Part shown: one piece after another, positions 19,308 through 51,879 of the stretch
How positions within the stretch are numbered: position 1 is the stretch's first letter
Layout: every line of letters begins with the position of its first letter
NCBI GenBank assembly: GCA_902555465.1
Contig: CACDSN010000008.1
Coordinates: 1 to 53,008, forward strand
Length of the DNA stretch: 53,008 nucleotides
Direction: 5' to 3'
Source of the DNA: an uncultured Pelagibacteraceae bacterium
GTDB lineage: Bacteria; Pseudomonadota; Alphaproteobacteria; Pelagibacterales; Pelagibacteraceae
Position numbers and translations under genes: made by a program
Notes under the pieces: generated by a model
Seen by the model: the letters and a program-made list of their open reading frames with translations, nothing else
Told to the model about the DNA's origin: nothing
Databases searched by the model: none

Positions 19308-19326
19308 TTGAATGATAATCATTCTC
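19308..19326. promoter_or_regulatory. Fur box A upstream of the eight-cysteine gene
   Basis: The sequence contains GAATGATAATCATTC (19310-19324), a perfect 7-1-7 inverted repeat matching the core of the Fur consensus GATAATGATAATCATTATC. It lies 46 bases before the ATG at 19262, where it would overlap a promoter read leftward. Confidence 0.8.
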
Positions 19327-19357
19327 AAAAAAAAATTATTTAAATTAGAAAAATATT

Positions 19358-19376
19358 AATAATGATAATCATTATC
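19358..19376. promoter_or_regulatory. Fur box B upstream of the eight-cysteine gene
   Basis: AATAATGATAATCATTATC matches the canonical 19-bp Fur consensus at 17-18 positions; the palindromic core ATAATGATAATCATTAT is perfect (8-1-8). It starts nine bases after the upstream gene's stop at 19385-19387 and is 50 bp from box A, so both boxes serve the leftward gene at 19262. Confidence 0.85.
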
Positions 19377-19384
19377 AAAATTTT

Positions 19385-19843
19385 TTAATTCATATCACAA
19401 GTAAAAAAAGAAATTTCTTTACCTTGATTTGGGGTATCAATATTAGTTGTGATTTCATGGAGCATTTCTCCTGTAGATTTATTTATAAAAACTGATTCGG
19501 AATACTTTTCATCATTTGTTAAAACTCTAAGTAAAATCGTATTATCTTTTAAAATTTGGGTATCATAAATTGCTCCATTTGGAGCATTAGTAAAAAAATC
19601 AGATAAACCAATTATTTTTAATTCTTGTGATTTGATTGCTTTTATATTTATTTTCCTATCTTTGTTATCCTTAATCTGAGCTGCACTAAATTCTTTATAA
19701 TCGTAAATCTCATTTTTTAATATCTGTTTATCAAGTTTACAATTTGAGCTCTTCTTATAGTCAATTGTAACATTTAAAAATGCTGCTTTAGCATTTGTAT
19801 TTAAAATTAATGAAACTAAAATTATTAAAAGTATATTTTTCAT
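19385..19843 (-). CDS. Secreted protein of unknown function
   Basis: A 152-residue protein with a clear signal peptide (about residues 1-20, ending AKA), so periplasmic. The mature part is Lys-rich with predicted beta strands (NVTIDYKKSSNCKLD, IFINK-like SESVFINKSTGEML) and two Cys (C34 and C149) that might form a disulfide. No family is recognised. It is the last gene of the leftward operon FAD oxidoreductase - 66-residue protein - this gene, ten bases after the second. Fur boxes lie downstream of it, not upstream, so it is not expected to be Fur-controlled from them. Confidence 0.7.
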   Translation of the reverse strand: MKNILLIILVSLILNTNAKAAFLNVTIDYKKSSNCKLDKQILKNEIYDYKEFSAAQIKDNKDRKINIKAIKSQELKIIGLSDFFTNAPNGAIYDTQILKDNTILLRVLTNDEKYSESVFINKSTGEMLHEITTNIDTPNQGKEISFFTCDMN

Positions 19844-45937: not shown

Positions 45938-46987
45938 TTAGAAACAAACAATATGTTCTATATGTATAGGCTTTCGAATTCCAAATTTATCGTTAATTTG
46001 ATGTTGATGAACATGGTGCGAGTGAACAAATACTGGTAATAAATTATTAGTATTAGTTTTTAAAGTATAAATAAAACTACTACCTCTAAATTTTATATCA
46101 ATAACATCAAATTTTAAATTACTTTTATCATCGTGCAGTAAATCCTCAGGCTGCAAAAGTAATTTTACATTTGTTCCAATCTCGACAGGATTTACAAAAT
46201 TTCCTGTGATTACACCTAGATCCTCATTTTCTAAACTTTTTGGACTGGTAACTTTTGCAGGAATTAAAACACCTCTATTAAGAAACTTAACTACTTTTTC
46301 TGAATTTGGAAAATGATATACATTGTAAGGATCATCAAATTGCTTAAGTTCTTTATCTAAAATTACGCCACATTTATCTCCCAAATAAAATGCTTCATAA
46401 GAATCATGAGTAACTATAATTGTTGTTATCTTAAACTTTTTAAGTATTTGTTTCAATTTTACTTGTATCTCCTCTTTAAAACTTTGATCAACGTTTGAAA
46501 GGGGTTCATCCAGCAATAATAAATCAGGGTTTGAATTCAGCGATCTTGCTAGTGAAGCTCTTTGTGCTTCTCCAGCACTAATTTGATGTGGAAATTTGTT
46601 TAGGATATTTTCTAAATTTAAAATTTTAATTAATTCATTAATATTTATCTGATCTCTATTACTATTTCTTGAAGATAATTTTATATTTTTTTCAATTGTG
46701 TAGTGAGGAAATAAACTATTTTCTTGAAACGAAAGAGCAATCTTTCTATCTTCTGGCTCTACATGAGTTTTTTCCGAAGATAAAGTTTTTTCTTTAAGAA
46801 TAATTTCACCTTGAGATATTTTTTCTAATCCTGCAATAGATCTTAAAATAGTTGTCTTTCCTATCCCAGATGGACCAAGCAAACATATAATATCTCCCTC
46901 ATTTTTAATTGAAAAGGAAACATTTTTAACTTTTTCTGAACCAGAAACTTTAAATGTAGTATTTTTAATTTCAAAAAAATTATTCAC
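45938..46987 (-). CDS. fbpC: Fe(III) ABC transporter ATP-binding protein (FbpC-like)
   Basis: A 349-residue ATPase with Walker A GPSGIGKTT at about residue 40, Q-loop SFQENSLFPHY, Walker B LLLDEPLSNVD and H-loop IIVTHDSYEAF. The signature is the unusual ISAGEAQRASLARSL in place of LSGGQQQR. The C-terminal domain ends in VHSHHVHQHQIN, a His-rich run. It overlaps the permease gene by eight bases and completes the fbpABC operon. The role is energising iron import. The His-rich tail could bind metal, but that is speculation. Confidence 0.85.
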   Translation of the reverse strand: MNNFFEIKNTTFKVSGSEKVKNVSFSIKNEGDIICLLGPSGIGKTTILRSIAGLEKISQGEIILKEKTLSSEKTHVEPEDRKIALSFQENSLFPHYTIEKNIKLSSRNSNRDQININELIKILNLENILNKFPHQISAGEAQRASLARSLNSNPDLLLLDEPLSNVDQSFKEEIQVKLKQILKKFKITTIIVTHDSYEAFYLGDKCGVILDKELKQFDDPYNVYHFPNSEKVVKFLNRGVLIPAKVTSPKSLENEDLGVITGNFVNPVEIGTNVKLLLQPEDLLHDDKSNLKFDVIDIKFRGSSFIYTLKTNTNNLLPVFVHSHHVHQHQINDKFGIRKPIHIEHIVCF

Positions 46988-48599
46988 TTCTCTCTCTTAA
47001 GATATATTTTGAAGTAAGTAAAATAAAGAAACTTGCGATTATAATCAAACATAAGGATGGGACTGCAGCAGCCTCTAATAAATCCTCAGAAGCAGAGATA
47101 TATGCCGTAGTTGCGAAAGTTTCAAAATTAAAGGGTCTTAAAATTAGTGTGATTGGTAATTCTCTAACTATTTCTAATGAAACCAATATAATTACAAATA
47201 AAAGAGAATTTCTTAAGTAAGGAATGTGAATATTTAAAAAAGTTTTTGTTTTAGAATATCCAAGAATATAAGCACTTTCATCAACAGAAATATTCATTTT
47301 CTCGTATCCAGACTTAATTCCATTAAAAGCTAATGAATAAAATCTTATACAGTAAACTATGACTAAACCTAAAATTGACCCTATAAATATTTTTTTTATA
47401 GATAAAAAACCTAATGTCTTAATTATATTCTCATCAAACCAAGCAACAAAAGTAATGAAAGCTATCGCGAGAATTACCCCAGGTATAGCATAACCGGAAA
47501 TTGATAGAGTAGATAATACATTTAATATTTTTTTATTTGAAACTCTATTTCCATAATTAGATATTAAAGCAAAAAATATTAGTACCAAACTTGATAAAAA
47601 AACTAAATATAAAGTATTTAATAAAAGATTAATTATATTTAAGTCATATAAATTTTCTGGAAATTTAATTGTCCAGTATAGCATTTGACTTAGCGGAAAT
47701 AGAAAACTTATAAAAAATAAAATAAAACAAAATGAAAATGCATAATAAGCCTTATAGCCATAAAGTTTAGTTTTTTGCTTTTTCTTAAACCCACCCTTAG
47801 CCTCCAGATGATATCGTGCTTTTCTTCTAGATAAATTCTCAGTTAGGAACAATATAAAAATAAATAATAAAAGAAAAAAAGATATACGGTTTGCAAATGC
47901 TAGGTCATCAAAGGCTATCCAGGCATTATAAATACCAGTAGTTAGAGTGTTTACTGAAAAGAAATCTACAGCACCAAACTCAGCTAAAGTCTCCATTGCT
48001 ACTAATGATAGTCCTGCAACAATAGCAGGACGAGCGGCAGGCAAAATTATTGAATAGAAACATTTTAACTTTGAAAAACCAAGATTTTTGCCTAATTCTA
48101 TTAAGTTTTGTGATTGATACAAAAATGAGGATCTTGCAAGTATGTAAACATAGGCAAAAAGAGAAAATGAAATTGATAATATTAAACCGAACATACCACT
48201 AAATTTAGGAATATGTTGATTATAATTTCCATCTCCAAATAAAAATTTTAAAATTGTAAATGCTGTTCCATAATTTTCAAAAAATGCAAATAAAGAGTAA
48301 GCGTAAATGTATGGTGGTACAGCAAATGAGAGAATTAAGGCCCATTTAAAAAAATTGGATCCTGGAAATTCATAAAATGAAACTATATACGCAGAGCCTA
48401 CTCCTAAAAAGAAAGTTAAAAATAAAACTCCGAATAAAAGAAATAAAGAATTAAAAACATATTCCAAAAAAAAAGTTTCTTTAAGAATTTCATAATAGTT
48501 AGATGTATCCTGAAAAAAACTTAAAAATATAGTTATGATTGGAATTATAACAATAATTGAAATTAAAAAAGAAGATATGAACCAAGCGTTTATTCTCAT
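46980..48599 (-). CDS. fbpB: Fe(III) ABC transporter permease (FbpB-like, fused double permease)
   Basis: A 539-residue permease with two copies of the binding-protein-dependent transport domain and about 12 membrane segments, as in FbpB/SfuB. The first copy's EAA loop is IELGKNLGFSKLKCFYSIILPAA-like (residues about 168-190), and ETLAEFGAVDFFSVNTLTTG is highly characteristic of iron permeases. The second copy has ESAYILGYSKTKTFLNIHIP as EAA loop. It moves ferric iron into the cytoplasm. It is preceded by the hairpin region and small protein gene. Confidence 0.9.
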   Translation of the reverse strand: MRINAWFISSFLISIIVIIPIITIFLSFFQDTSNYYEILKETFFLEYVFNSLFLLFGVLFLTFFLGVGSAYIVSFYEFPGSNFFKWALILSFAVPPYIYAYSLFAFFENYGTAFTILKFLFGDGNYNQHIPKFSGMFGLILSISFSLFAYVYILARSSFLYQSQNLIELGKNLGFSKLKCFYSIILPAARPAIVAGLSLVAMETLAEFGAVDFFSVNTLTTGIYNAWIAFDDLAFANRISFFLLLFIFILFLTENLSRRKARYHLEAKGGFKKKQKTKLYGYKAYYAFSFCFILFFISFLFPLSQMLYWTIKFPENLYDLNIINLLLNTLYLVFLSSLVLIFFALISNYGNRVSNKKILNVLSTLSISGYAIPGVILAIAFITFVAWFDENIIKTLGFLSIKKIFIGSILGLVIVYCIRFYSLAFNGIKSGYEKMNISVDESAYILGYSKTKTFLNIHIPYLRNSLLFVIILVSLEIVRELPITLILRPFNFETFATTAYISASEDLLEAAAVPSLCLIIIASFFILLTSKYILRERSE

Positions 48600-48633: not shown

Positions 48634-48671
48634 TAGTGTCCACGAAAAGGGAAAGCCAATCGTGGACACTA
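48634..48671 (-). other. 12-bp hairpin between the Cys mini-protein and fbpB
   Basis: A perfect 12-bp inverted repeat (TAGTGTCCACGA / TCGTGGACACTA) with a 14-base loop lies 10 bases after the stop of the small gene. Neither strand has a T-run after it, so it is not a classic terminator. By position it corresponds to the terminators after the other binding-protein genes; it may protect the fbpA message from 3' decay or be a protein site. Confidence 0.65.
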
Positions 48672-48681
48672 TTTAAGAAAA

Positions 48682-48852
48682 TCAAAAATTAAATACTTTT
48701 AGGATATGCGGAACCTCCTTAGCTTTAACTTCTGAAAGTTTTCTTTTATTTATTCTTTTATCTATTTTTTTACACTCCGCAGCACATGGAGAACACGGCT
48801 TGGAAGATTTATTATAATCGATATCAGAAATAAATTTTGTTTTTTCTTTCAT
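48682..48852 (-). CDS. 56-residue CxxCxxxC protein coupled to fbpA
   Basis: ATG 48852 follows the fbpA stop codon TAG without a gap, and the frame runs to TGA 48682. The protein has an acidic N-terminus (FISDIDYNKSSK), a cysteine cluster PCSPCAAECKK (C20, C23, C27), then a Lys/Arg-rich half (KRINKRKLSEVKAKE). There is no signal peptide, so it is cytoplasmic. A CxxCxxxC motif could bind Fe, Zn or a 4Fe-4S cluster (with a fourth ligand). Position inside a Fur-controlled iron operon and exact stop-start coupling support a real gene in iron handling. No family is recognised. Confidence 0.7.
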   Translation of the reverse strand: MKEKTKFISDIDYNKSSKPCSPCAAECKKIDKRINKRKLSEVKAKEVPHILKVFNF

Positions 48853-49881
48853 CTATTTCCATCCAGCAGCTGTCATTATTTCTACTGCAGTAGCTTGATT
48901 TTTCCCATAAGAAGCTAACTTGGTTTTCATGTCTTGTTTGAAATCTAATCCTAAGTTGTTTACTACTAATGGGCTTGGTGAAACACCATCAATCATTGGA
49001 AACTCAAAAGTATTATTTGTAAAGTGTTCTTGAGCTTCAGGTGTTAATAGATACTCCACAATAGCAATAGCGTTTGCTTTGTTAGGAGCGCCTTTTACTA
49101 AAGCTGCACAACTAACATTCATGTGAGTTCCTCTATCATTTTGATTAGGGAAGAAAGCTTTAACTTTTCCAGCAGCTTCTTGTTGTTCTGGACCTTTTTT
49201 ACCCGACAACATAAGAGCTAAGTAATATGTATTTGCTACAGCAATATCTGCTTCTCCAGCAGCAACTGCCATAATTTGTGCTCTATCATTACCTTCTGGT
49301 GTTCTTGCCATGTTAGCAACAACTCCCTCTGCCCATGCAGCTGCAGCTTTTTTACCATTGTTAGCAATTAATGAAGCTACAAGAGATTTATTGTAAATGT
49401 TGCTAGATTTTCTTATTACTAATCTACCTTTCCATTTAGGATCTGCTAGACCTTCATAAGTCATTCCAGATAATTCAGCGCCAGTAACTCTTTCAGGCGA
49501 GTAATAAATTATTCTAGCTCTTTTTGCGATTCCAACCCACTTATTTGTTCTAAAAGTTTTTGGAACAGCTGCTTTGATAGATGCAGAAGTTAATCCAGAT
49601 TGAAGTACACCTTTTGAATCCATCGCACCACATCTTCCAGCATCAGCTGTAATATAAAGGTCTGCGGATGAGTCAGCGCCCTCTTCAATTATTCTTTTCT
49701 CTAATGCGCCTGATTTACCGTTAATTAAATTTACTTTAATTCCCGTTTTCGCTGTAAACTTTCCATAAAGTTCAGCATCAGCTTTGTAATGTCTTGCATT
49801 GAAAATATTAACTTCAGCTGCAATTGCAAAATTTGATACAAACAATGAGATAATCAAAGCCAAATTTGTTATTTTTTTCAT
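48853..49881 (-). CDS. fbpA: Fe(III) ABC transporter substrate-binding protein (FbpA/FutA-like)
   Basis: A 342-residue periplasmic protein with a signal peptide (residues 1-21, ending AIA). NIFNARHYKADAELYGKF at the mature start matches FutA/FbpA class iron receptors (HY pair as iron ligands), and IAVANTYYLALM near residue 213 holds the diagnostic double Tyr that binds ferric iron. LINGKSGALEKRIIEEG and NVSCAALVKGAPN are family patterns. Two Shine-Dalgarno-like GGAG motifs precede the ATG, the nearer at four bases. A double Fur box lies 33-67 bases upstream. It is the first gene of the operon. Confidence 0.93.
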   Translation of the reverse strand: MKKITNLALIISLFVSNFAIAAEVNIFNARHYKADAELYGKFTAKTGIKVNLINGKSGALEKRIIEEGADSSADLYITADAGRCGAMDSKGVLQSGLTSASIKAAVPKTFRTNKWVGIAKRARIIYYSPERVTGAELSGMTYEGLADPKWKGRLVIRKSSNIYNKSLVASLIANNGKKAAAAWAEGVVANMARTPEGNDRAQIMAVAAGEADIAVANTYYLALMLSGKKGPEQQEAAGKVKAFFPNQNDRGTHMNVSCAALVKGAPNKANAIAIVEYLLTPEAQEHFTNNTFEFPMIDGVSPSPLVVNNLGLDFKQDMKTKLASYGKNQATAVEIMTAAGWK

Positions 49882-49913: not shown

Positions 49914-49948
49914 AATGATAACTATTATCATTGATAATGATTATCAAT
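49914..49948. promoter_or_regulatory. Two overlapping Fur boxes upstream of fbpA
   Basis: ATTGATAATGATTATCAAT (49930-49948) is a perfect 9-1-9 inverted repeat close to the Fur consensus. AATGATAACTATTATCATT (49914-49932) is a second box with one mismatch between arms, overlapping the first by three bases. Together they would let two Fur dimers cover the fbpA promoter. Confidence 0.88.
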
Positions 49949-50876: not shown

Positions 50877-51879
50877 TTATTTATTTACATCAACAACTAT
50901 TCTACCAGAAACCTGACCTTTTAAAATTTGAGGAAAAATATTTATTAACTCATCCATACTTATTGTTTGAACAACTTCATCCAGAACATTAAAATCAATC
51001 AATCTTTCAACTTGAGACCAAACAAACTCTCTTCTTTTCATGCTAATTTGAATTGAGTCTATTCCCCAAAGTTTTACTCCTCTTAAAATAAAAGGCATCA
51101 CATTAGTATTTAATTTTACACCACCCGCATTTCCACATGCTGCAATAATTCCAGAGTGTTTCGTTTGAGTAATTGCATGGGCTAAAATGTTTCCACCAAC
51201 TGTATCAACAACGCCATCCCAAATTGCTTTTCCAAGTAATTTCGTTTCCCCTTCAAATTCTGATCTATTTACAATGTTTTTTGCACCTAATTTTTTTAAA
51301 ATCTCAACGTTTTCAGGTTTGCCAGTTACAGCGGTTACATTATATCCCATTTTCGATAAAGCCATAACAGCAACTGATCCTACTCCTCCTGTCGCACCAG
51401 TAACGAGTACATCATTAACTTTTTCTCCTAACAAAAGACTCTCTCTAGCATTAACTGCTAAAGCACAAAGTAAAGCTGTAAAGCCTGCTGTACCCATAAT
51501 CATAGTTTCTTTATTTGATATATTTTTTGGTTTTTTAATTAAAAATTCTTTTTTAACTTTTGCTAATTGAGAGTAGCCTCCATGATAAATTTCTCCGACT
51601 CTACATCCTGTTAGGACAACTTCATCATCTTTTTTAAATTCACTTACGTTGCTTTCTAAAACTTTTCCAGAAAAATCAATTCCGGGTATTCTTGGAAAAT
51701 CTCTTACTAATTTTCCTCCATCATTTAAAATTAAAGCATCTTTGTAGTTTAAGTCTGAATAGTCTACTTTTACAAGAACATCTCCTTGATCCAAAAAAAC
51801 TAGAGTCTAATTCTTTAATTTCTCTTGAGAAATTTTCAGATTGATTATCTATTACTATGGCTTTAAATTTGTCAGACAT
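50877..51879 (-). CDS. acuI: AcuI/YhdH-type acryloyl-CoA reductase, apparent frameshift
   Basis: A medium-chain dehydrogenase. VDYSDLNYKDALIL, RIPGIDFSGKV, VTGATGGVGSVAVM (NADPH loop) and VDTVGGN are intact from 51794 down, but that frame lacks the family's first ~28 residues. They are found in another frame from ATG 51879 (MSDKFKAIVIDNQSENFSRE). A run of seven T (minus strand, 51793-51799) joins the frames; six T would give a continuous 333-residue protein (..SSFLDQGDVLVKV). So there is one extra base. AcuI reduces acryloyl-CoA from DMSP breakdown to propionyl-CoA. Gene order folE-acuI-lysR, 21 bases after folE. Confidence 0.85.

Follow-up and report, generated by a model that had tools for sequence, protein, structure and literature searches.

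A microprotein gene in the ferric iron importer operon

The ferric iron importer operon of an uncultured Pelagibacteraceae bacterium carries, between fbpA and fbpB, a 56-aa gene that we call SMALL. It is almost certainly a genuine protein gene, and as judged from the searches it is a previously unmodelled microprotein gene restricted to SAR11 and its family. We tentatively suggest that its product is a cytoplasmic dithiol microprotein that handles iron entering through FbpBC.

We analyzed a window of 53,008 nt (contig CACDSN010000008.1), to which all coordinates refer. SMALL occupies 48682..48852 on the minus strand (ATG 48852-48850, TGA 48684-48682). Translation of the plus strand of this interval is interrupted by stops, and the frame is open on the minus strand only, 48852→48682. 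The product (MKEKTKFISDIDYNKSSKPCSPCAAECKKIDKRINKRKLSEVKAKEVPHILKVFNF) has a computed net charge of +8, and neither a signal peptide nor a membrane segment was apparent from its sequence. A first-pass annotation of the same DNA had described most of these features correctly: the ATG comes immediately after the TAG of fbpA, C20, C23, and C27 all lie within PCSPCAAEC, the second half is basic, and the frame ends shortly before a 12-bp hairpin (48634..48671, minus strand), which begins 10 nt past the SMALL stop and runs from 48671 to 48634. The CSPC motif corresponds to codons 20-23 (48784..48795, minus strand) and the third Cys to codon 27 (48772-48774, minus strand).

The same annotation had placed the gene inside a Fur-boxed fbpABC operon, and the FbpA type, the neighbors, and an exact palindrome all agree with this. 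The gene directly upstream (48853..49881, minus strand) encodes a 342-aa ferric iron-binding protein of the fbpA/sfuC/futA type, identified by homology to solved ferric-binding proteins (iron transport protein 2pt1, E 3e-86; FbpA entry 1q35, E 9e-51; FutA/FbpA type). Downstream on the same strand are the fbpB permease (46980..48599) and the fbpC ATPase (45938..46987), which overlap. The host operon is thus a ferric ABC transporter, FbpABC/FutABC, by FbpA homology together with an adjacent permease and ATPase. The exact Fur-box-like palindrome GATAATGATTATC lies at 49933..49945 (minus strand), 52 nt ahead of the start of fbpA, and the motif has five matches with at most one mismatch in the window vs 0.22 expected. 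Under iron limitation, the sfuC, sfuB, and sfuA transcripts of strain HTCC1062 rise 16-, 10-, and 5-fold (PMC2864753), and SAR11 is devoid of any classical siderophore machinery (PMC13271415). At the loci read, the usual genes upstream are folE-QOR-LysR.

Two further Fur-box-like palindromes lie near a gene for a 152-aa protein (19314-19376 and 19385-19843, minus strand). They are found on the 3′ side of this gene, between two convergent genes; the N-terminus of the protein resembles a signal peptide, and Pfam gave no match for it.

Conservation, synteny, and selection

The first-pass annotation had proposed searching the fbpA-fbpB gap of SAR11 genomes and computing dN/dS, and both analyses favored a real gene. 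Using a single-sequence query, we matched SMALL in 128 of 201 genomes of the genus and in 27 of the 30 that are nearly complete. We then searched the same genomes with FbpA and compared coordinates, counting only those in which the fbpA 3′ end lies within the contig (n = 132). SMALL was present on the same strand in 126 and absent from six; where present, the match begins 2-82 bp beyond fbpA. Profile searches recovered SMALL at the same position in the further family genera g3, g4, g13, and g14, so that five family genera have orthologues. Wherever the operon was readable they lie between fbpA and fbpB, and at the loci read the order was constant: fbpA-SMALL-(sometimes peroxiredoxin)-fbpB-fbpC. 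No location other than the iron importer operon was seen in the genomes searched. When genome contigs were searched with a narrow profile, the best 80 of 316 relatives were all Pelagibacteraceae, Pelagibacterales, or Pelagibacter records.

Among 87 distinct coding sequences, the median dN/dS by divergence bin was 0.28-0.49, which is purifying selection of moderate strength. A spurious ORF could be this short and missing from some relatives, but orthologues in five genera with dN/dS well below 1 refute that idea and leave it next to no chance. Several genera have kept the frame and the CxxC at this one place in the operon, which puts the case for a genuine gene, as supposed in the first-pass annotation, far beyond chance.

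Outside the family we found no credible match in 385 class-level genomes; three marginal matches (E 0.002-0.01) were read back at their loci, and none was a convincing orthologue. Weak second matches in three genus genomes (E about 0.008-0.01) fall in a 690-aa frame, which in the one case read (G032) resembles polynucleotide phosphorylase, and the matches in genus g6 are antisense to a membrane-protein gene. Two degenerate patterns detected no SMALL in viral contigs. Pfam and NCBIfam gave no significant match or covering model for the query, a Pfam scan of 43 members gave the same result, and PHROG and PDB-sequence searches returned nothing significant.

An invariant cysteine pair

Only C20, C23, and F54 are invariant among 43 diverse members; P22, E26, K29, and R37 are nearly so. 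The first-pass annotation had proposed a CxxCxxxC cluster, of which the first two cysteines stand and the third does not. The third position is Cys in 81 of the 87 distinct core-set coding sequences and Val or Ala in the remainder. Replacement by Val occurs in a few genus clades (e.g., L042-L044 and L073), and the two sister genera, g3 and g4, have Ala, Val, or Thr at this site, except that the g3 members L121 and L122 retain the Cys. Read from the alignment, the conserved site is CxxC, usually CxPC, instead of CxxCxxxC. A [4Fe-4S]-type three-Cys site therefore fails, as the third Cys is not conserved. Since only two cysteines are invariant in 56 residues, SMALL would have to dimerize or join a partner to bind a metal as a tetrathiolate; the alternative would be a redox dithiol. 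The pair by itself could also bind Zn or be purely structural.

AlphaFold with a 43-row alignment predicted helices at 21-34 and 44-53 (pLDDT 78, pTM 0.49), in which C20 immediately precedes helix 1 and the first turn of that helix holds C23. Such an arrangement at a helix start is frequent in metal and redox dithiols. For one g4 member modeled from its single sequence the helix layout was different and is less reliable. Foldseek of the SMALL model against the PDB gave no match.

Several known small proteins of metal metabolism were compared with SMALL. HMA domains, such as the N-terminus of CopA, share a CxxC at a helix start and a weak local similarity, but the latter is not significant (E about 1.1 against PDB sequences) and no beta-alpha-beta fold is predicted for SMALL; we rejected an HMA metal-binding domain because fold and significant match were both lacking by Pfam, PDB sequence, AlphaFold, and Foldseek. 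Bacterioferritin-associated ferredoxin (Bfd) and other Fe-S proteins are likewise small Cys proteins of iron metabolism. They need four Cys ligands, and with two invariant cysteines SMALL was not accepted as a Bfd or 2Fe-2S ferredoxin. The Fbp proteins of B. subtilis are small, basic, and regulated by iron starvation; they act with the sRNA FsrA, whereas SMALL is tied to the operon of a ferric ABC transporter and carries the invariant CxPC.

FeoC, encoded in the feo Fe(II) operon, is a small cytoplasmic winged-helix protein. Like it, SMALL is a small Cys-containing, presumably cytoplasmic protein encoded beside an iron importer; unlike it, SMALL is modeled as two helices, and the Cys spacing differs. 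By analogy, SMALL might be a Zn- or Fe-stabilized accessory subunit that sits on the transporter, at FbpC or FbpB, and tunes stability or activity as FeoC does for FeoB. A small, presumably cytoplasmic protein with cysteines, strictly tied to the iron importer operon and found nowhere else in the genomes searched, would suit such a role. It is not, however, FeoC-like by Pfam scan or predicted fold (the FeoC winged-helix family matched none of the 43 members scanned), and wherever it was read it lies in fbpA-fbpB rather than in a feoAB operon. We regard this subunit role as rather doubtful.

A hairpin element before fbpB

The hairpin downstream of SMALL is a conserved RNA element that likely serves as a translational-coupling or regulatory device. 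Most relatives have a stable hairpin at this place (mononucleotide-shuffle z often -4 to -8) that begins about 10 nt past whichever stop precedes it, with stem sequences that are very different among relatives. Loop complementarity to the fbpB SD-start region was seen in L071 (ACTTACCCTT/AAGGGTAAGT), L036 (TTTACCCT/AGGGTAAA), L046 (GGTATTACCC/GGGTAATATC), and L113 (CTCCTCC/GGAGGAG), and to the fbpB start in L110 and L111 (ATTACCC/GGGTAAT). Summed across 55 non-redundant gaps, the energy of loop-RBS pairing was better than in all 2000 permutations in which loops were exchanged between loci, a result that gives no strict probability because the loci are related. In the window's own hairpin, loop-RBS pairing is weak and no better than with swapped loops. 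An Rfam search across the operon gave no match at E up to 0.1.

The pattern resembles a pseudoknot in which loop and RBS change together (L036, L046, L071, L110, L111, L113, L232, and L233 considered). In L068, an unusually long SMALL-fbpB gap contains tandem long hairpins with a fold energy of -59.5 kcal/mol.

Does the hairpin explain SMALL? SMALL is small, has a net charge of +8, and comes from a Fur-boxed operon; its gene directly precedes the conserved hairpin, and in several relatives the hairpin loop complements the ribosome-binding site of fbpB. On these grounds SMALL could be an RNA-binding protein of the RNA chaperone type. But the hairpin element is present without SMALL in HTCC1062 and relatives, L110-L112, L232, and L233, SMALL is present with gaps of 0-13 nt that are too short for a hairpin (L076, L133, and L136), and a plain RNA chaperone would not be expected to have an invariant Cys pair; we consider this role unlikely. 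As they occur independently, neither SMALL nor the RNA element requires the other, and we rejected SMALL as an obligate partner of the hairpin. It is also conceivable that the peptide is functionless and the ORF only a coupling or leader device carrying ribosomes to the hairpin before fbpB, given a stop codon about 10 nt before the hairpin and a hairpin at the same distance past the fbpA stop where SMALL was lost. Amino-acid-level purifying selection and the invariant C, C, and F contradict this, as does the fact that the hairpin follows fbpA alone where a lineage lacks SMALL, making a mere leader very improbable.

Loss and decay

SMALL is cleanly absent from L106, L107, L110-L118, L232, and L233, where the fbpA-fbpB gap is 11-86 bp. 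It is frameshifted or truncated in L120, L124, L125, and L140, and L109/L231 keeps a recognizable scar of its 3′ end. Labels for presence, loss, and decay require at least 11 changes on the FbpA tree, a pattern consistent with SMALL being ancestral in the family, as is probably the case, with several losses; alternatively, fbpA may have been transferred horizontally together with SMALL. The first-pass annotation had counted on the frame being kept in close relatives. It is lost in some lineages by deletion, frameshift, or decay to a scar, and since purifying selection acts on the frame in genomes that have it, this marks a dispensable accessory gene, not a false ORF. Having been lost repeatedly, SMALL is not required for iron import.

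One genome without SMALL (G226) was identified as the model strain HTCC1062. Its FbpA match (1180955-1181971) directly adjoins 1181972-1182071, the intergenic region between sfuC and SAR11_1239 (PMC2704228). As SMALL is missing there, the iron-limitation work on HTCC1062 (PMC2864753) informs on the operon only, and existing studies of this kind on that strain could not have seen SMALL. The natural pattern of presence and loss supplies ready comparison strains.

Proposed role

SMALL would be translated together with fbpA: its start codon lies at the fbpA stop or shortly beyond it, and the 3′ end of the fbpA gene (TGGAAATAG) has GGAA a few bases 5′ of the SMALL ATG, so that the final fbpA codons, TGGAAA TAG, are the source of an SD-like sequence. 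On iron starvation, Fur would release the operon and SMALL would be made alongside FbpA, the periplasmic Fe(III)-binding protein. In the predicted cytoplasmic product, the N-terminus would be flexible and basic, helix 1 would be capped by the CxPC dithiol, and a short second helix would precede the invariant Phe. The dithiol, probably shared by two copies or with a partner, may bind, reduce, or pass on iron delivered by FbpBC; alternatively, SMALL may regulate FbpBC according to the cytosolic iron or redox state.

Taken as a whole, the explanation that SMALL is a genuine, SAR11-specific protein, co-translated with fbpA, whose CxPC dithiol handles iron or regulates FbpBC is plausible, if somewhat short of an even chance. 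The gene, its position, its selection, its Cys pair, and its dispensability are observed; a location in the cytoplasm, coupled translation, control by Fur, a metal or redox chemistry, and a partner are inferred. More specifically, SMALL could possibly found a new SAR11-specific iron-handling family, with a CxPC protein that receives or reduces FbpBC-delivered ferric iron or senses iron to gate the transporter, a proposal we hold only loosely. In general, the fate of Fe(III) after its import by FbpBC to the cytoplasm is, to our knowledge, poorly understood, and SMALL is a concrete candidate for handling it there. SAR11 acquires iron through this ferric importer in iron-poor oceans, and the proposal, if true, would add a previously unknown step, in the cytoplasm, to the way a dominant marine lineage imports ferric iron.

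Other genes at these loci

SMALL-fbpB gaps of about 680-790 bp occur in L011, L023, L025, L032, L035, L041, L042, L073, and L081, and those read hold an extra gene, a peroxiredoxin (Redoxin match for L041). The peroxiredoxin is degenerate in L011 and L023, apparently without its catalytic Cys, and that of L011 no longer matches Pfam. L108 has a remnant. In the window, a quinone-oxidoreductase-like gene (51721-51879 and 50877-51794, minus strand) is apparently split near 51.79 kb; its N-terminal part, MSDKFKAIVIDNQSENFSREIKELDSS, is in a different frame from the remainder, which suggests a frameshift or an assembly error.
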